A stretch of 21,279 nt of DNA from a virus. The notes under the pieces are model-generated. The model was given only the letters and a program-made list of their open reading frames with translations, searched no databases and was not told the origin of the DNA. The DNA lies in IMG/VR virus record IMGVR_UViG_3300000232_000004, positions 3,558-24,836 of that record; one strand, given 5' to 3'. This document shows positions 43 to 19,302 of this stretch, one piece after another; position 1 is the stretch's first letter, and each line of letters opens with the position of its first letter. The position numbers were made by a program, and so were the translations under genes.

Positions 43-635
43 AAATTCTGTCAGCACTCACACCAATTAAGCCTCACGCAACACCGTCAGAAATTGCAGA
101 TTGGTTGCACTTGTGGACGGGTGAGCCAATAAATGACAGCCACGAAGTTAACCAGGTAAAACGGCTGAGGGCAGTTCACGAGTTGTCAAAACTAGAGCAA
201 CCGTGCCCCTACCGTGGTTTTCGAGCAATATCTGTGGCGAATGACTTGGAAACATGGGAAGACCTAGATAAGTATTTGAACGGGGATTTTCCAGAAAGCT
301 ACGCATACAGAATTTCCGGCGTTAACGGCTTTTTGCAAAGTTATCCAGCAAAGGATGAAAAGCAGCTAGTATTTCGGCTGGATATTCAACCTTCAGACTT
401 GGTGGCGAATATCAACTACCTTATTAAACGTCTGCCGGTAAGACAGCGAGAAAAAATTGTCAACGACAAGACCCTCCAAGATTGCCTTAAACAAGAGGAG
501 TTTGTTGCTGCTAGCGGCACGCTGAAAAAAGCGCTGCACCAAAAAGGGCTATTTGTCGTCGGTATTATTGTACCGGGCGAGCAAAAGGTTATTCTGTGTA
601 CACCAAGAAAGTCGGGTCTGCAATATGATGATTGA
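39..635 (+). CDS. Putative ADP-ribosyltransferase-like protein
   Basis: 198 residues, starting at an ATG that overlaps the upstream stop. I do not recognise it as a named phage protein. Its layout resembles the R-S-E class of ADP-ribosyltransferases. There is a YRG at residues 58-60 (first-strand Arg), a hydrophobic strand with a Ser around residue 93, a strand-like LVFRLDI (110-116), and QEEF at 152-155 that fits the Q/E-x-E catalytic turn, followed by a GT-containing turn and a terminal beta-rich stretch (LFVVGIIV). In the family these enzymes transfer ADP-ribose from NAD+ to protein, RNA or DNA; T4-type phages use such enzymes on host RNA polymerase. The usual STS motif is not clear. The gene overlaps the following 2H phosphoesterase gene by 11 bases, so the two are probably translationally coupled. 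Other NAD-binding or unrelated folds remain possible. Confidence 0.4.
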   Translation: MKILSALTPIKPHATPSEIADWLHLWTGEPINDSHEVNQVKRLRAVHELSKLEQPCPYRGFRAISVANDLETWEDLDKYLNGDFPESYAYRISGVNGFLQSYPAKDEKQLVFRLDIQPSDLVANINYLIKRLPVRQREKIVNDKTLQDCLKQEEFVAASGTLKKALHQKGLFVVGIIVPGEQKVILCTPRKSGLQYDD

Positions 636-1095
636 ACATGCGTACTATGAGGGAAAAGGGCTTTACGCTTCACTGACACCAACCCAAAGCACCTTACAAA
701 AATTGCAATCGCTATACTTGCCCGGTCAGGGGTTGTCCCCTATTCAATGGCATGTGACAGTTTCGTACAATCCAAAATTCTCCGTGTCACCTCATGCATT
801 TACAGAAGTGTTCGCTGTGAGCGGGGCAGACACGACTTATGCCGCAACGGTAATAAAGGAGACTTTTTGGGAGGGTGCCAACGGCAAGATTTATAAGGTA
901 CTACTGCTTCACTCGCCAGAGATTGTCACGCTGCACAACTATCTAAAAGAAGTGCTCAAGATTTCCCACGGATTTCCCACGTATGAGCCTCATATGACTC
1001 TGGTAGAAAACTGTGTCGTAAAGGGGCCAGACAATAAGAGTCTTGCCGGTACAAGCGTATCATTTGGTGGGTTTCGTATTGAGGACGTAAAATGA
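625..1095 (+). CDS. 2H phosphoesterase (Acb1-like or CPDase/LigT-like)
   Basis: 156 residues from the ATG at 625 (a second ATG at 628 is equally plausible). A longer reading from a TTG at 553 would lie mostly inside the previous gene. Two H-x-T motifs are plain: HVT at residues 43-45 within WHVTVSY, and HMT at 123-125 within YEPHMTLV. Each ends a predicted beta strand, which is the signature of the 2H phosphoesterase superfamily. Known members cleave 2'-5' or 2',3'-cyclic phosphodiesters in RNA, ADP-ribose cyclic phosphate, or the cyclic oligonucleotide signals of CBASS defence (phage T4 Acb1 is a small 2H protein of similar size). Substrate cannot be read from sequence. The gene overlaps the ADP-ribosyltransferase-like gene upstream by 11 bases and the helical gene downstream by 4 (ATGA). 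A role in counter-defence or in RNA or ADP-ribose processing is an inference. Confidence 0.8.
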   Translation: MMIEHAYYEGKGLYASLTPTQSTLQKLQSLYLPGQGLSPIQWHVTVSYNPKFSVSPHAFTEVFAVSGADTTYAATVIKETFWEGANGKIYKVLLLHSPEIVTLHNYLKEVLKISHGFPTYEPHMTLVENCVVKGPDNKSLAGTSVSFGGFRIEDVK

Positions 1096-1703: not shown

Positions 1704-2060
1704 ATGCTTGTGCTACATGCGAAAGAAATTGCTGCTACACCTAAATGGTGGGATGGGTTGTCCCCTGAACAGCAAAAGGAATATGTAAAGGAGCACCCGA
1801 ATTCAAAGCTGGCAAAAAATCACCCGCTTTTCAAAGCTGCCAAAGAGGGAAATAACCTTAGCAACACATTAAAGCACCCGCTAGTCGGCATTATTCAGGA
1901 CACGAACGGGAATACCCCTCTGCACTATGCCGCCGAGTATGACAAGGGTGCAAGACAGCACCCCGATGCCAATTTGACAAAGAATAAGTTAGGCCATACA
2001 CCAAAAGAACACTTTGAAGAGTTTGTCAAAAAAGCCATGTCTCCTAATTGGACAAAATGA
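1704..2060 (+). CDS. Small ankyrin-like protein with WWDGLSPEQQ segment
   Basis: 118 residues; ATG preceded by AGGAG at 1691-1695 with good spacing. Residues 14-38 carry a Trp-rich stretch, KWWDGLSPEQQKEY, followed by HPNSKLAK, which looks like a short helical interaction module. Residues 66-78 (DTNGNTPLHYAAE) match the ankyrin consensus G-x-T-P-L-H-x-A-A, and residues 96-104 (LGHTPKEHF) look like the start of a second, incomplete ankyrin unit. Between them are loop residues, so at most one and a half repeats are present, which is too few to fold as a classical ankyrin stack on its own. The protein may dock on a partner. It sits between a helical protein and a membrane-prone protein. The frame of the next gene is open across its last codons (see the note on the A-run at 2028-2033). 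Confidence 0.75.
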   Translation: MLVLHAKEIAATPKWWDGLSPEQQKEYVKEHPNSKLAKNHPLFKAAKEGNNLSNTLKHPLVGIIQDTNGNTPLHYAAEYDKGARQHPDANLTKNKLGHTPKEHFEEFVKKAMSPNWTK

Positions 2061-3350: not shown

Positions 3351-3607
3351 GCTACAAGTTCAAACCGCAAAAAAAGATTAAAACGTTATGGACGAAAAGA
3401 GAGCCTCCAAAAGTTAGATTCCCTCAGCGCAAACTAACTCTTGAACGAGATAATTTCAAATGTCGCCGGTGTGGGTGTGCTGTGACTTTGGCGAACGCCC
3501 ATGAGCACCACATAACACCGTTGTCTAAAGGTGGCACTAACGCACAGTGGAACCGCGTAACTCTGTGTGAAGCCTGCCATCACAAATTCCACAAGCACGA
3601 CTTTTAA
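3347..3607 (+). CDS. HNH endonuclease
   Basis: 86 residues. After a basic, unstructured N-terminus (1-34) the HNH zinc-finger nuclease core is complete: C39-x2-C42, the H54-H55-I strand, the G62-G63 turn, N69, C74-x2-C77 and H78/H82. The four cysteines would hold a structural zinc, and the HH...N...H residues would form the beta-beta-alpha-metal active site that nicks or cuts DNA. Small free-standing HNH proteins of this kind occur in phages either as homing endonucleases or as packaging partners of the terminase. Here it is far from the terminase gene, embedded between unknown genes and translationally coupled to the one upstream. Whether it is a homing enzyme or a phage function cannot be decided from the sequence. 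Confidence 0.9.
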   Translation: MSYKFKPQKKIKTLWTKREPPKVRFPQRKLTLERDNFKCRRCGCAVTLANAHEHHITPLSKGGTNAQWNRVTLCEACHHKFHKHDF

Positions 3608-3949: not shown

Positions 3950-6900
3950 ATGAAAGAAGTTGCAGTAATTATCCCAAATAAGTTGCACCAAGACATTGTT
4001 GCTGACCACCCGCTTTATCGTATTTTTGCTGATAATGGCATGGCCGTTTTGTTGACAGCCTACGTATATGCTAAAAATAACATCGTCCGGCGAATCAACC
4101 CTGATTTGCAGATCGGCATGGCAATTACAGAAGCTGACGAATCTGGGCTAGGCTCATTGCTAGAAAAGCTCGCAGACCCTACTGTTAAAGCGTTTCTTCG
4201 CGTGCGCAAAACGTCCACTGGATTTACCGCGTTTCTACCAGCAGCTACAACATTTCCGGTTTTGTTCGACCTATTCCCAAATTTTCGGCTTTTGGCCGGA
4301 AAAGACATTGAAGCAGCCGTGGAAAAAGTCTTGCCTGGATTCACAAATCCGGCAGAACCACTGGACGTATCCTTTGGCAAAGAGCTTATTGCTGGTTTTG
4401 AAAATGATGAAAATGCCCATGACTACGCTCCAGACCTGTTAGATCAAGTGGCTAACGGCATTACAGGGTTTCGTCTAGTCATGCAGCCCGCAGATAAAGT
4501 GACTTTGCGCGAAGACTGGCGTGATAACGAATATGACTACCGTTCAAGCCTTGGAGCTTTGATTAACCGCCGTGCTGTATTGTTTGCGTCTTTCAACATT
4601 CCAGAAAAAATGGCAGAGTTTATTACCCAAGAACGCGGTGATGGAGTCCGTACTAGTCAGATTGCCGAGTTTCTTTCTCGAATTCAATCAAATCTTTTTG
4701 AGCCTTCAAGACAAAAGCAAGAATTTGTTCCGCACATTATTTCAGTAACGTCTATCGAAAAGGACAACCGGGAGTCCGACGTAATTGTTGAGCCTGCTAC
4801 TAACGAAAAGGGCTTGACCGTTACGCGCTCTGGTGAGATTATGTGGCTGCCTGGCAAAAAGATGTCGCCGGAATTTGTAGAGAACACCATTGAATCCGGT
4901 GGTACACAGCCTGATGGTGACTGGACGGCTGCTGACGCGATAAACCCAAAGCAAACCGAGTATCACGTTGACAACGGTGTGCGTCGCCGTATTGATCGTG
5001 GGCAGAACCGCATCGTTTACGTTGACTGGAATTTAGGTAAATTGTCGTACACTGACGAAACCGCCCGTATCCGCATTATGGATATTACCGCGAATCGTAA
5101 GGTACAGCCAGTGCATGTTTTGCGGTACATGGATACTTTACTTGAAGACTCATCCCCGGCTACAACTGCAGTATTAAATGGTCTAGTTTTCGCTACCCGT
5201 ATTGCGAAAAAAATTGGAGTGGTGTTTCCACAACAAACTGCTGATACCTTTGTATCTGAAAGATTTCTGTCGTCAATGACGGAAAAATTCAACGAGGGGG
5301 CTACCCTTGAAGTCTTAAATGTCATCATTTCCCAGGTAAAAGCTGCTGTGGACTCCAGACAGACTGCAACCGGGGCAGAGTTGACGGCAGAAGAATACCA
5401 AAAGGGCCAGGCTTTCCTCGATATGCCGAGAAACATGCGAATGATTTCCCCTGATAGCCCTATCGCATTCCTTCGCGGCATGTATGTCTTCTTTTCGGAA
5501 GTTTTGGAAAAAGCGCAAAAAGACCCGGACACCGTTTTTGGGGAATTCTCGGTTCTGAATTCGTTGAAATTCGTAGGTGCATTGACTATTCTGGTTGACT
5601 ACGCAAAAGAGTACGACAATGTTGTTGCGGAAGATACCGAGGAGCGTAAGCCTTATAAAAACCCCGATCTTGACCCGATTGACAATATACAGCTTCCAAA
5701 GATTCCTCTGGTGGCTGGCACCGTAGAGTTGATGCCGCACCAAGCCAAGGTAATGAACTATCTCAAAAACTTCCCGCACAAACTGGTGTTGGAAGTAGAT
5801 GCCGGTGGTGGTAAAACTGCGATTGCAATGCTGTACGCATCCATGCTGCTTGGTGCTGGAAAAGTCAAAAAGATTTTAATTGCGTGTCCAGGTAATCTTG
5901 TGTCAAACTACTATACTGATGCAGGGTGGGTATTTGGCGGGCGTATGAACCTGATAAACATTTCTACGTCTGTGATGGAAGCGAAGAATTGGGGTGAGGA
6001 AAAGATTAGACAGTTAATCGACGCCGCACCGCCGAACACTATGTTTATTACGGATTATGACTTTTTGGCACCTTCTTCAAAGTCGAAAAGCATCGTAAAG
6101 TTTGTGTACGGGAATGAGCGCGTTAAAATTTCCACAAACACGCAATTTATCCGTTCGTACAAATGGGACCTTATCATTTACGACGAAGCGCACTTGCTTA
6201 AAACAGTCGGGGGCAATCGCAACGTCGAAATGACCCGGATTGCGGCGAATGCAAAATATCTGGTCGAAATGTCAGGTACTTACGTGTCTGATAGTCTGAG
6301 CGATCTTGTGGGTGCATTTGGAATTATCGACCCGCAAACTTTTGGTTCCCCCGATCAGTTTGCATCTGCATATTTGACAAACGGCCCAAAAAGTCTGCCT
6401 ATAGACGGTGCTCAAAAGCAAATTCGTCTAGCAATGGCAGAATCTTGCATGAATCTGCGGGTATCACGTAAAGAATGGAACGCACTGCTGCCGCGTCGCT
6501 TTGATTCGTTCTACCCTGTAGAAATGACAATGGCACAGACTTTAGTGTACCTTGCAATATTGAAGGAAACTCGGGAAGTCATCGAGCGAGCATTTGAGGA
6601 CAACCCATTCCTCAAAAATGCCTTTAAGATTAAGAAGAAAAAGGATGCGAACGCTGACGCTGACGCTGACGCTGAAGAAGAAGAAGAGGGTACAAGCCTT
6701 GATGATCTTCTTAACGGCCCGGTTGCAATGTACTTGCAGCGGCTTGAGCAATTCTTGACTGCGCCGAGTGCTGACCCTATGGGAAAAAATCTCACAGGAA
6801 AGGATGCAATCTCTCCAAAGCTGGCTAAGGTTGAAGAACTCATTCACGAGCATCTTACCGAGAAACGCCCCGGAAAGATTATGGTGTGGACACAGTACGT

Positions 6901-8677
6901 TGCTAGTGCTTCCCACATTTACGATAGTCTATCCGAGGACCTGCGAAAACACGCCGTTCTATACACCGCCGCGCACTCTGCAAAAGTTCTTGCACAGTTT
7001 GAAAAAGACCCGAATATCTACATTCTGGTTGGCTGTGAAAAATCCATCAACACTGGACAAAACCTGCAGTTTGCCAGCCACTTGATTCGTTTGGAAACCG
7101 TCTGGAATTATGGGACGCTGGAACAGGGTGAGAGCCGTATTAACCGACCTTCACGAGATGATCCTCGTAAAGAAGAAAACGGCGGGAAGGGTATTTTTTA
7201 TTCGTGGGTGTTTTGCAACAAGTCGATTGACGTTACAAAAAACGCACGAATGTTCTCCAAACTCATTTCTACCGTCAAATATAATGAGGCTATTGGGGAA
7301 GATTCCGCTGCGTACAGCATGATTGATGAACCGCCACCAATCAAGCTGAATCAAGCCAATCTTTTGACTTCAAATGACTGGCGCTCAGAAGAAGGGTGTG
7401 AGCGGTATTTTCAAGCCTACGACCAGTATCAACGAGTTCAGGAAAAATCGTACAAAGCATTCCGGGAAGACCCCAAAAATCAGATCGAGCCGTACACGAT
7501 GGAAAATGGGCCGGTTCCAAAAGGCTCTGGTTTGCTGGTAAATATCCCGTATGTGCCGCGTATGCAAATCTACAACTCCGAGCAATTGGGGTTGGTTCCG
7601 TTTATTGAGTACATTAGCACCAAAAAGAATAAGCAAGGTGTTATTCTGAATGAAGACCCTGACTGGACACCGGAAGACTTAAACATTCACTGCGAATATG
7701 GTGATTGCGTTGCGGTGGATTACAACACTACGCAGAATCGGCAACCTCAGTCAATTCGCGTTATTACTCCAAACGGAAGCCGTGCGAGCATTCCTCTGAC
7801 TGCTGCGTGGGTAATCACGAAAACAGTGTCCAAGAGTTCTGACATTCGTAAGGCTTTTGCGGAAATGGTCGGTGCTGATACTGGCAACCCTGTCACCCCA
7901 AAAATTGTCAAGCGTGTAAATCCTCTTAAAGATGCGCAGCAACAGCAGCAGGACAATGCTGATAAGCCTATCAACGTTCGGGATGTTGGCCGTGGCCCTA
8001 TCAATAAGCGTGGGCGCTTGCCGGAAAAAGACCCGAAGGGCAAAGGTGGCTTTGAGTTGTTTGTTGTCAGTTTTGACAACTATCCTGCATTAGTGGTTGA
8101 TGCAAACAACAAGCAGGTTAAATCGAACATTGACGCGCTTGAAGGGTTTGGCTTTATGCCGTCATTGCCGTATCGGTCAACTCCAATTCGTAACCCACGA
8201 GTACTTAAAGCCTGGATTGCTGCGCTTAAAGCGGCCAAGATTGAAATTGCCCCGGCGTATAAAGAACTGCTTGAAACAGACCTTGCATTGCTGACGCAAC
8301 ACAAGAGTTTGCTGCAAGTACTGCAGGGTATGGCAAAATCGTTGCGGCCAAACTTTTTCCGTAAAGAACTCAAACCGGCACCCACTGGTCAGATTAAACC
8401 TTACTTGTTCGTGGACAATGCAACGCAAGTGTATTTGTGCTTGAACCAGAAAGCAAACGCTGCAACAATGAGCCGTGTCACCTCGCTGGAAGTTCCGGGT
8501 ATAACCTGGTCACCAATTGTGAAAGGAGAGCTTGCCGCATTTTTCAAGACAAAGAAGGAAATGGAAAGCACCATGAAGGACGTACTGGCAAACTTTCCTA
8601 TTGAAAATGCACGTGAGGTTGCGCAGGACTTTGCAAAACTTCGCGTGTTCTCTACCCCGAAAAAAGTAAAAGGATAA
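3950..8677 (+). CDS. Very large SNF2-type superfamily 2 helicase
   Basis: 1575 residues; ATG preceded by AAGGAA. The ATPase core lies in the middle. Motif Ia-like input LMPHQAKVMNYL is followed by Walker A AGGGKT (618-623), Walker B DEAH (745-748), motif III SGT (775-777), then the second RecA lobe with KIMVWTQY, INTGQNLQFA and a motif VI of Q-G-E-S-R-I-N-R-P (1059-1067), which is SNF2-like. Such enzymes move along duplex DNA and remodel protein-DNA complexes. Between the lobes is a low-complexity acidic insert (residues 898-913; Ala-Asp repeats then five Glu). About 590 residues before and 450 after the core match nothing I know; a poly-Gln run sits near residue 1328. Phages use proteins of this type in replication, transcription or anti-restriction; the role here is unknown. 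It is followed directly by the acidic-tail gene. Confidence 0.9.
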   Translation: MKEVAVIIPNKLHQDIVADHPLYRIFADNGMAVLLTAYVYAKNNIVRRINPDLQIGMAITEADESGLGSLLEKLADPTVKAFLRVRKTSTGFTAFLPAATTFPVLFDLFPNFRLLAGKDIEAAVEKVLPGFTNPAEPLDVSFGKELIAGFENDENAHDYAPDLLDQVANGITGFRLVMQPADKVTLREDWRDNEYDYRSSLGALINRRAVLFASFNIPEKMAEFITQERGDGVRTSQIAEFLSRIQSNLFEPSRQKQEFVPHIISVTSIEKDNRESDVIVEPATNEKGLTVTRSGEIMWLPGKKMSPEFVENTIESGGTQPDGDWTAADAINPKQTEYHVDNGVRRRIDRGQNRIVYVDWNLGKLSYTDETARIRIMDITANRKVQPVHVLRYMDTLLEDSSPATTAVLNGLVFATRIAKKIGVVFPQQTADTFVSERFLSSMTEKFNEGATLEVLNVIISQVKAAVDSRQTATGAELTAEEYQKGQAFLDMPRNMRMISPDSPIAFLRGMYVFFSEVLEKAQKDPDTVFGEFSVLNSLKFVGALTILVDYAKEYDNVVAEDTEERKPYKNPDLDPIDNIQLPKIPLVAGTVELMPHQAKVMNYLKNFPHKLVLEVDAGGGKTAIAMLYASMLLGAGKVKKILIACPGNLVSNYYTDAGWVFGGRMNLINISTSVMEAKNWGEEKIRQLIDAAPPNTMFITDYDFLAPSSKSKSIVKFVYGNERVKISTNTQFIRSYKWDLIIYDEAHLLKTVGGNRNVEMTRIAANAKYLVEMSGTYVSDSLSDLVGAFGIIDPQTFGSPDQFASAYLTNGPKSLPIDGAQKQIRLAMAESCMNLRVSRKEWNALLPRRFDSFYPVEMTMAQTLVYLAILKETREVIERAFEDNPFLKNAFKIKKKKDANADADADAEEEEEGTSLDDLLNGPVAMYLQRLEQFLTAPSADPMGKNLTGKDAISPKLAKVEELIHEHLTEKRPGKIMVWTQYVASASHIYDSLSEDLRKHAVLYTAAHSAKVLAQFEKDPNIYILVGCEKSINTGQNLQFASHLIRLETVWNYGTLEQGESRINRPSRDDPRKEENGGKGIFYSWVFCNKSIDVTKNARMFSKLISTVKYNEAIGEDSAAYSMIDEPPPIKLNQANLLTSNDWRSEEGCERYFQAYDQYQRVQEKSYKAFREDPKNQIEPYTMENGPVPKGSGLLVNIPYVPRMQIYNSEQLGLVPFIEYISTKKNKQGVILNEDPDWTPEDLNIHCEYGDCVAVDYNTTQNRQPQSIRVITPNGSRASIPLTAAWVITKTVSKSSDIRKAFAEMVGADTGNPVTPKIVKRVNPLKDAQQQQQDNADKPINVRDVGRGPINKRGRLPEKDPKGKGGFELFVVSFDNYPALVVDANNKQVKSNIDALEGFGFMPSLPYRSTPIRNPRVLKAWIAALKAAKIEIAPAYKELLETDLALLTQHKSLLQVLQGMAKSLRPNFFRKELKPAPTGQIKPYLFVDNATQVYLCLNQKANAATMSRVTSLEVPGITWSPIVKGELAAFFKTKKEMESTMKDVLANFPIENAREVAQDFAKLRVFSTPKKVKG
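6653..6688 (+). repeat. In-frame (GCTGAC)3 plus GAA run in helicase
   Basis: Three perfect GCTGAC units (6653-6670) are followed by GCT and five Glu codons. They encode an Ala-Asp / poly-Glu linker between the two RecA lobes of the SNF2 helicase. Hexamer repeats of this type expand and contract by slippage without breaking the frame, so the linker length probably varies between relatives. Confidence 0.8.
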
Positions 8678-16561: not shown

Positions 16562-17167
16562 ATGCTAGTTCAACTCGAAGACAAAACTACAAGAGCGTTG
16601 ACAAATAGAGGCTTACCAAAAGACATGCTGCGCGCACGCCCGTTTCCGCTTGAGCAGCATTTAATCACTATTGAGTCAAAGGTTGACGGAATAAAGACGA
16701 GGAGAGTTCCCAAAATTTCCCAGATTTTGCATCTGGAAAAGTTTATGCAGCATCCTTTTGTTGCGCCGCAGATCATTTCCATATCATCCTTTCCAAATGA
16801 CGGTAAGGCTAAAATGCTGGCGGCGTACATGATGCAGACTGCATACAATTCGCATATTGCCGGGCGTTTTCGCTTGACCAAGAATCGACAGTTACCATTG
16901 TGGCATACCTTATACGGCGGGTTTTATGACGAATTGCGCGACGGTAAAAAAGACGAAAAGCCGTCATTACTTGTGCTGAGTAACATTACGCACATGAGTA
17001 CGCAGGTAAAACTAGAAAAACTGAGAGACTTGCTTGAAAAATACAACGATATACCTAGGATCATCGTGTCAACCAATGAAGACCCCATAACGCTTGCCAA
17101 CACCAAACTGCTAATTTCGGTGAACACTGCATTCTATTTGGCTACAGCGAGAAAGGTTGACTTGTGA
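16562..17167 (+). CDS. Degenerate AAA+ protein, possible helicase-loader relative
   Basis: 201 residues; ATG immediately after the previous stop (TAA-ATG), and its TGA overlaps the GTG start of the DnaB gene. The layout follows a DnaC/DnaI-type loader core. IISISSFPNDGKAKML (71-86) sits where Walker A should be but lacks the G-x-x-G-x-G-K-S/T pattern (only D80-G81-K82). SLLVLSNITHMST (135-147) sits at Walker B with Ser-Asn where Asp-Asp is expected. RIIVSTNEDP (166-175) matches the sensor I strand that ends in T-N. The second half is the better match. If this reading is right the protein no longer hydrolyses ATP but could still bind the helicase. Its position just before the replicative helicase, overlapping its start, supports a loader or adaptor role. 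A wholly different fold is possible. Confidence 0.55.
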   Translation: MLVQLEDKTTRALTNRGLPKDMLRARPFPLEQHLITIESKVDGIKTRRVPKISQILHLEKFMQHPFVAPQIISISSFPNDGKAKMLAAYMMQTAYNSHIAGRFRLTKNRQLPLWHTLYGGFYDELRDGKKDEKPSLLVLSNITHMSTQVKLEKLRDLLEKYNDIPRIIVSTNEDPITLANTKLLISVNTAFYLATARKVDL

Positions 17168-19302
17168 AATTACTTTCGGTGCAAAGCGAACTGCGCGCAT
17201 TACGTTCAATATGTGATGGAGACACAAAGACGGCTTCAAAGTTAATGTCTGTACTGCAACAATCGCATTTTCAGTATCCACCGGCAGCAGAGGCATTCAA
17301 GATTGTCAAGCGACAAGCGAAAGCAAACGGTGAATTCCCTGAGTGGTCAACGCTTTGCAATGAGCCGACGCTGGAAGTTTCAACACGTAGAGCATTAAAA
17401 GGCGCTAATGTTGAAATGGTTCCTGCGGCAAAAACCGCGTCAATTGTCGGAATCTTGGAAAGATACCGCAAGCTAAGAGTGCTGCTCGAAGCGGGGCGCT
17501 CCATCATGGATTCGTTAGGTGGGGAAAAAGCAAATCCTGATGAACTGATTGAGCAGACTGCGAACGCATTAACAAATGCTAGGATTAACACAGAATCCAA
17601 GCAAACAATGTACCACATTGGTAAAGGCAATAACAGCACGCAGCTACTAAAAGAGCTACTGTATGGTAAAAAGCCGCCAATGGTAAAAACCGGATACCAG
17701 GCATACGATGAACGAAACGGTGGTTTTCTTCGTGGGTCGTTGGTGCTGATTGGCGCAAATACTGGCGGTGGGAAGTGCCTAGTTGGTACTTCGATGGTTC
17801 CAACATCTATGGGTCTGCTTTCGCTAGGCGAACTGCGCGAACCAACGGATGCTGTTGGTTTTTCTCCTCTAAAAGTTTCAGTGTACGGTAAGCACGGAGT
17901 TGAAGAAACTGATGCAACCTACATGACCAACGGTACGACGTTTTCAATTGAAACGGAGCAAGGGGACTTTATTGAGGGGTTGCCAGATCACAAACTATTG
18001 ACGCCGAATGGTTTTGTGCGCTTAGACAGTCTCAAAATTGGTGATAAGGTATTAAAGCCAGTCGCAACAAAGATTTTTGCCAGCAATCCGTGCATGTATC
18101 ACGGACACTTTAGATTTACCCCAGGTGTTCTTACTATGATGGCGCACGCATTCCGTAGCAGTAATCCACCAAAAGAATTTGCAGAGTGTGCGTATGGGGT
18201 GCCGAAAAGTATCCGCACAACAAAACAGGTATACCAAGAGATTTTTTGCCACGCTGTTTTGAATGACACAAGCATGGAATCCAAGAGTCACAAAAAACTG
18301 TTGCAGTTTAAGGCTCTTTGCGACAATTTGGGTATCCGCGTTATTATTGAATACTGCAAGCGCGGGCCAAAGTCCCATAAACCTGCTTATATCTTGAAAA
18401 GATTTATTGGTACTTTGGACATGGCTAAGGGTACTTTGGACAGGGTTCACCCGGAGCCATCGTTTTGGGTGCGCGTTACTAAAAATGCACCTGGAACACA
18501 ACAAGTAGTGTACGACTTGAGCGTTCCCAAAAGCCGATCTTATTGCGCGCAGGGTATTATCGGACACAATACATCAATGGCTGTTAACCTGCTTAAAAAC
18601 ATGGCAGAGTTTTACGCCAACAACTGTGCGCTGGTTTCTCTGGAAATGTCGGCTGAACAAATGCTGGCTCGTTTGCAGGCAATTCTGACCGGCATTGAAC
18701 TGCAAAAGATTACGCTGCACCGGCTTGATGCTGACGAAAAGAAACGAATTGCGGCAGCGTACAAAAAGTTTGCTGTTAGCCTAAAAAACAACGATACCCG
18801 GTTTACCATCCACACGCCAGAGACAGCCAAACTTGAAGAATTACTGTATAGCCTTCAACCATTCGGGTATGACGTAATCTTGATCGACTATGTATCTCTA
18901 CTTGATGGTAGCGGTTCAACAGGCGAAGCAGCGCAATGGGAAAAGCTAGGAGCCATAACAAAATTTGCCAAACGGTACGCAGAAAGAACTGGCATTGTCG
19001 TGATTTTGCTTGTTCAGGTTACAGCAGAGGGATTGGTTCGCTACTCTCGCACCATGATTGAAGACGCAAACCATGTTTGGGTGTGGACAGCTACAAAAGA
19101 AGAAAGCGAGACGGTAATTTATGACATTGCGCAGTTGAAGGCTCGAAATCTTCAATTGTTCAATTTTCAGCTATCTTCAAACAGTGTGACTGGCAAGATT
19201 ACAGATGTTGACGCGACACAGTTGTCACAGACTGATGAAGAGGTTGAAAATGAACCGAAACAATACATGGTGGATATAAATGACCAATCGGATGATAGTT
19301 GA
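17164..19302 (+). CDS. DnaB-type replicative helicase interrupted by an intein
   Basis: 712 residues from a GTG start that overlaps the previous stop (GTGA at 17164). Extein residues 1-204 hold the N-terminal helical domain and linker, ending in GANTGGGK of the P-loop. An intein (205-469) follows, then the C-terminal RecA-like domain resumes at T470. Joined, the P-loop reads GANTGGGK-T and the mature helicase has about 447 residues, a normal DnaB size. Walker B is LIDYVSLLD with D575. A motif H3-like strand VVILLVQVT ends in the sensor Gln, and KARN near the C-terminus is at the arginine-finger position. It unwinds DNA at the fork as a hexamer. No primase domain is fused. Because the intein splits the P-loop, the helicase is inactive until splicing occurs. 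Confidence 0.92.
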   Translation: MKLLSVQSELRALRSICDGDTKTASKLMSVLQQSHFQYPPAAEAFKIVKRQAKANGEFPEWSTLCNEPTLEVSTRRALKGANVEMVPAAKTASIVGILERYRKLRVLLEAGRSIMDSLGGEKANPDELIEQTANALTNARINTESKQTMYHIGKGNNSTQLLKELLYGKKPPMVKTGYQAYDERNGGFLRGSLVLIGANTGGGKCLVGTSMVPTSMGLLSLGELREPTDAVGFSPLKVSVYGKHGVEETDATYMTNGTTFSIETEQGDFIEGLPDHKLLTPNGFVRLDSLKIGDKVLKPVATKIFASNPCMYHGHFRFTPGVLTMMAHAFRSSNPPKEFAECAYGVPKSIRTTKQVYQEIFCHAVLNDTSMESKSHKKLLQFKALCDNLGIRVIIEYCKRGPKSHKPAYILKRFIGTLDMAKGTLDRVHPEPSFWVRVTKNAPGTQQVVYDLSVPKSRSYCAQGIIGHNTSMAVNLLKNMAEFYANNCALVSLEMSAEQMLARLQAILTGIELQKITLHRLDADEKKRIAAAYKKFAVSLKNNDTRFTIHTPETAKLEELLYSLQPFGYDVILIDYVSLLDGSGSTGEAAQWEKLGAITKFAKRYAERTGIVVILLVQVTAEGLVRYSRTMIEDANHVWVWTATKEESETVIYDIAQLKARNLQLFNFQLSSNSVTGKITDVDATQLSQTDEEVENEPKQYMVDINDQSDDS
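17776..18570 (+). mobile_element. Intein in the P-loop of the replicative helicase
   Basis: 265 residues from Cys205 (CLVGTSMV) to the His-Asn pair at 468-469 (GIIGHN), with Thr470 as the first residue of the C-extein. Block A starts with the nucleophilic Cys. Block B has the conserved histidine in GLPDHKLLTP (H276). Block F is VYDLSVPKSRSY, and block G ends in HN. All residues needed for splicing are present. Between blocks B and F about 150 residues remain, shorter than a full LAGLIDADG endonuclease. One stretch (SHKKLLQFKALCDNLGI) resembles the region after a second LAGLIDADG helix, but no intact acidic motif pair is seen, so the homing nuclease looks degenerate. The GK|T of a P-loop is a recurrent intein site. 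Confidence 0.92.
18409..18441 (+). repeat. 12-bp direct repeat inside the intein
   Basis: GGTACTTTGGAC occurs at 18409-18420 and 18430-18441, 21 bases apart and in frame, giving GTLDMAK then GTLDRVH. It lies just before splicing block F, in the part where an endonuclease has decayed. A small tandem duplication or a linker scar would explain it. Confidence 0.7.

Follow-up and report, generated by a model that had tools for sequence, protein, structure and literature searches.

Acb1 of phages FBB1 and T4 (gp57B; 7t26 and 7t27) has its catalytic residues at H44, T46, H113 and T115 and stacks the bases of its ligand on Y12, W74, F107 and W147 (PMC9117128). The adenine N6 is contacted by E141, and residues 145-152 form a lid (PMC9117128). 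Nine further acb1 genes were tested in the same study, and all nine products cleaved 3'3'-cGAMP and cAAA (PMC9117128). The neighbors of acb1 in T4 are 57A, gene 1 and ipI. Acb1 proteins from outside the T4-like phages have also been described, in prophages (PMC9117128) and in the Burkholderia phage BCSR5 (9q2g). The first-pass annotation of the gene studied here had proposed a possible counter-defense gene outside the T4 context. This applies to the phage that carries it, but not as a novelty, since Acb1 proteins of such origin were already known.

The window, a stretch of 21,279 nucleotides (positions 3,558 to 24,836 of the IMG/VR record IMGVR_UViG_3300000232_000004), is part of a linear virus record of 38,651 bases (a 38.7-kb fragment of an uncultured jumbo phage). 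The Acb1-family 2H phosphoesterase gene, P0001, occupies positions 625..1095 of the plus strand as an intact open reading frame of 156 codons with an ATG start and a TGA stop. Its start falls within the last 11 nt of the upstream reading frame 39-635, giving an 11-nt overlap, and at its other end the stop codon and the start codon of the following gene overlap in the sequence ATGA (1092-1095). Overlaps at both ends are an arrangement common in phage operons. A scan of the surroundings of the gene for promoters and terminators gave nothing above chance. The length of the product is close to that of T4 Acb1 (152 amino acids), as had been noticed from the sequence, and the two HxT motifs reported at the same time are present and intact.

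To place the protein in a family, it was compared with 24,736 Pfam models. The anti-CBASS family Acb1 (PF23474) was the sole match at E<=1, scoring 31.3 bits where the curated cut-off is 27 (E = 2e-7), and a search of the virus record itself with this model gave 31 bits. No match at E<=1 was found to the LigT and 2'-5' RNA ligase models (PF02834 and PF13563), where very weak matches may be masked by the HMMER filters, or to the CPDase (ADP-ribose cyclic phosphate) family in Pfam. Among solved structures, only Acb1 proteins matched by sequence. The phmmer E-values were 5e-7 and 1e-5 for the two entries of BCSR5 Acb1 (9q2g and 9q2y), and the match to FBB1 Acb1 (7t26) had an E-value of 0.006. In hhalign, a profile of five T4/KVP40-type Acb1 proteins was matched with a probability of 97%, and 120 columns were aligned at 33% identity. 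Sequence identities to Acb1 proteins lie in the range of 16-32%, and direct scans of viral and bacterial genome collections and of plasmids gave no close relatives. Taken together, the protein is almost certainly a divergent member of the Acb1 family. The search against family models had been suggested at first reading, where an Acb1-type identity was raised as a candidate; it picked this family and no other, and the candidate identity is supported by the Acb1-only structure matches and by the predicted fold.

The catalytic residues of T4 Acb1 are conserved. The first motif, H43-V-T45 (HVT; 751..759, plus strand), corresponds to T4 H44/T46, and the second, H123-M-T125 (HMT; 991..999, plus strand), to H113/T115. 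Three of the aromatic residues on which the bases stack in T4 (PMC9117128) also have counterparts in our alignment (A6), namely Y14 (codon 664..666) for Y12, W82 (868..870) for W74 and F117 (973..975) for F107, all on the plus strand. The adenine-contacting E141 is aligned with E153 (1081..1083, plus strand). This pairing is ungapped along the last strand in A6, but conservation of that strand is poor and the pairing moves in other alignments, so E153 is a probable rather than a secure counterpart. The protein is 25% identical to T4/FBB1 Acb1 and is predicted to share the 2H fold with it. The BCSR5 enzyme, the best PDB match both by sequence and by fold, has the two HxT motifs as well and the same GLY...W...H.P.Y..H.T signature, with about 24% identity in a structural alignment; it differs in having a histidine at the position of F117.

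An AlphaFold2 model was built from an alignment of 20 sequences, in which all 19 helper sequences were Acb1 proteins. The model (mean pLDDT 78, pTM 0.76; residues 1-9 unreliable) predicts a compact paired-lobe 2H fold. In VIA-align 2, it came closest to BCSR5 Acb1 (Z 16.6, rmsd 2.6 over 144 residues) and FBB1 Acb1 (Z 16.0, rmsd 2.1 over 132 residues; Z 15.1 for the product-bound entry). Arabidopsis CPDase (1jh6; 13.0), E. coli LigT (5ldm; 11.8) and the penguinpox cGAMP phosphodiesterase (10.8), all scored in the same way, followed behind, and Foldseek likewise ranked Acb1 proteins first. The comparison of folds that had been proposed from the sequence thus came out in favor of an Acb1, although a helper alignment made up of Acb1 proteins tilts the model towards that family, and the predicted fold is to be taken as support and not as independent proof.

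One part of the T4 enzyme is missing. The protein ends three residues past E153, so the T4 lid (residues 145-152) with W147 has no counterpart. The T4-type C-terminal tail is absent as well from the homologs of BcepSauron, Motura, PaBG and a 277-kb IMG/VR relative. It is also absent from BCSR5 Acb1 in the part of the sequence that was seen, although the titles of the BCSR5 PDB entries mention a lid. The lid would therefore be a mark of the T4 branch and not of the family. For the comparison with the poxvirus lid, we relied on a commentary (PMC12064943). The position of E141 also varies, with E, P, G, G, Q, Q, S, E, E and K among the ten copies from jumbo phages that A6 includes. The missing lid and W147, together with this variation among related jumbo phages, suggest that the range of substrates may differ from that of T4 Acb1.

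To identify the phage, the terminase and portal of the record were compared with those of known phages. Both are closest, at 33-42% identity, to those of jumbo myophages: Vibrio GR7B and GR11A, the Pseudomonas putida SKa-4 group, PaBG, NCTB, Yoloswag, Dickeya JA11 and Xanthomonas PhiXhv. Matches to PF23474 above the cut-off were found in all 13 relatives searched (PaBG, PhiXhv-12, GR7B, GR11A, NCTB, Yoloswag, JA11, SKa-4, RHph_N46, BcepSauron, BcepSaruman, Motura and the 277-kb IMG/VR contig). Because several of these had been found through Acb1 itself, the eight picked solely by terminase, portal or P0003, the downstream neighbor (GR7B, GR11A, NCTB, Yoloswag, JA11, SKa-4, RHph_N46 and Motura), make the fair sample, and all eight carry the family. 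The match in RHph_N46 contains one TGA, and either this copy is broken or the match overruns the end of the gene. Neither phiKZ nor lambda has a PF23474 match. In this small sample, Acb1 looks near-universal in the PaBG/Yoloswag/GR7B-type jumbo phages, which suggests that the whole group retains an Acb1 gene. An accessory gene that is freely exchanged would be expected to be less widespread, and the pattern may reflect either constant pressure from CBASS or an additional role.

The PaBG copy is annotated "RNA ligase LigT" (YP_008433550). It belongs to a Pseudomonas phage related by its portal (42%), is of the Acb1 family and also lacks the T4 lid. It differs in having a glycine at the adenine-contact position, a longer N terminus and other neighbors (a head maturation protease), and it is, weakly, the nearest row in our trees. 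With long branches included, the window protein groups with the jumbo-phage rows (split 97/97, branch length 0.034). This split is weak once PhiXhv-12 and NCTB are left out, and the data do not reject a tree that places the protein among the T4-type sequences (p-AU 0.30). We therefore claim no exact placement.

The gene neighborhood was also explored and differs from that of T4 acb1. Downstream, P0003 (1092..1700, plus strand; 202 amino acids) has its start overlapping the stop of the Acb1 gene, and matches to it were found in 10 of the 13 records searched, its own record counted. In PhiXhv-12, the P0003 homolog directly follows Acb1, and after it come an HNH endonuclease, one gene and a giant helicase, an order that resembles the window. 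GR7B, GR11A and SKa-4 keep the order of P0003, a short gene (an HNH gene in SKa-4), one gene and a very long gene, and in these phages Acb1 lies ~6 kb upstream, on the far side of an NAD-dependent DNA ligase. In Motura, Acb1 comes after a helicase and two genes ahead of the head protease. These orders place Acb1 in a replication/head region, with no obvious anti-defense island around it. The upstream neighbor P0002 (39..635, plus strand; 198 amino acids) gave no relatives and no family match. By eye, it has a YRGFR motif and a QEE near its C terminus that recall an ADP-ribosyltransferase, but with a pLDDT of 41 for a single-sequence model and no family match, we do not claim this function.

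Substrate, chemistry and an anti-CBASS role can be proposed by analogy with T4/FBB1 Acb1. On this basis, we hold it probable, at roughly three chances in four, that the protein degrades cyclic di- and trinucleotide immune signals. It would be a metal-independent 2H phosphodiesterase holding the alarm signal between its two lobes, with the bases stacked on Y14, W82 and F117. H43/T45 and H123/T125 would provide acid-base catalysis for an attack of the ribose 2'-OH on the 3'-5' bond, and the signal would be linearized through a 2',3'-cyclic phosphate intermediate. As an outcome, CBASS effectors would be kept from killing the cell.

A protein of this superfamily could instead act as a cyclic phosphodiesterase on RNA or ADP-ribose ends, of the LigT/CPDase type, and serve RNA or tRNA repair rather than act on immune signals. 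The protein does match PHROG 755 (E = 2.4e-14), a family named "RNA ligase," which is also the label of its relatives in many phage records. However, the record of T4 57B, the first known Acb1, uses this label too, so that the name is no evidence for a ligase. Ten of the 14 aligned family members also match the generic LigT or 2_5_RNA_ligase2 Pfam models, and a gene found almost throughout a phage group would fit a housekeeping role. Against this stand the match of the window protein to PF23474 alone among Pfam models, the lower rank of the LigT and CPDase folds and the conservation of the aromatic residues that stack the bases in Acb1, and we regard a repair function as improbable.

It is quite improbable, in our judgment, that an enzyme of the Acb1 family has here been re-targeted to another immune nucleotide, such as the larger cyclic oligoadenylates of type III CRISPR or the 2'3'-c-di-AMP of Panoptes-type systems, with CBASS no longer the main target. 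The pocket could be opened or changed by the loss of the lid and by the variable residue at the E141 position in jumbo phages, and T4 Acb1 also degrades 2'3'-c-di-AMP (PMC12657230). On the other hand, cA4 is left uncleaved by T4 Acb1 (PMC9117128), E153, as the probable counterpart of E141, suggests that the adenine contact is retained in this copy, and no feature of the window indicates any particular other system. Low identity, a long branch and a shortened C terminus might also be read as signs of a decayed or non-catalytic 2H protein that only binds its ligand or is being lost. This is very improbable for a complete reading frame that preserves the two catalytic HxT pairs, is set in a string of overlapping genes and is retained in every related phage tested.

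A gene commonly labeled "RNA ligase" or "hypothetical" becomes a testable counter-defense candidate. Two points are mildly interesting: the gene looks near-universal in one jumbo-phage group, and the lid and adenine-contact positions vary. A search of the literature on BCSR5 Acb1 and on Acb1 in PaBG/Yoloswag/GR7B-type jumbo phages found no description of a lid-less jumbo-phage branch. If that branch is active, comparison with T4 Acb1 would reveal the pocket elements that determine nucleotide specificity. One could speculate that the lid-less Acb1 of these phages is a core gene of altered specificity. Without W147 and with a changed E141 position, it might act on signals that are out of reach for T4 Acb1, such as guanine-only cyclic dinucleotides or larger rings, and be retained because such signals are met in most hosts. 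We consider this proposal doubtful.

Several other genes of this phage were observed along the way. A 1575-aa SNF2-type helicase is encoded at window positions 3950-8677 (plus strand), and a very long gene lies in the same relative place in related jumbo phages. A DnaB-like replicative helicase at 17164-19302 (plus strand) contains an intein (PF14890, 34.8 bits, just below the cut-off of 35.8), which interrupts the protein directly behind the Walker A lysine (GANTGGGK/C ... HN/TS, slashes marking the junctions). Two ankyrin-repeat proteins (window 1704-2060 and L002:182-967), the longer one with several repeats, have a common N-terminal motif, W(W/F)...S.E.QKEY.K.HP.SK. Outside the window, a 551-aa protein at L003:11266-12921 (plus strand), with a DUF723 and a weak REase_MTES_1575 match, is probably a free-standing homing-type endonuclease, and a papain-family (C1) cysteine protease (L003:6714-7523, plus strand; 53.9 bits) lies between the terminase and portal genes. 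In another phage, Pam3, the C-terminal stretch of the portal (PDB 8hds, residues 482-589) is Acb1-like, with E-values of 0.001 to GR7B Acb1 and 0.06 to T4 Acb1, and may be a 2H domain fused to a portal.
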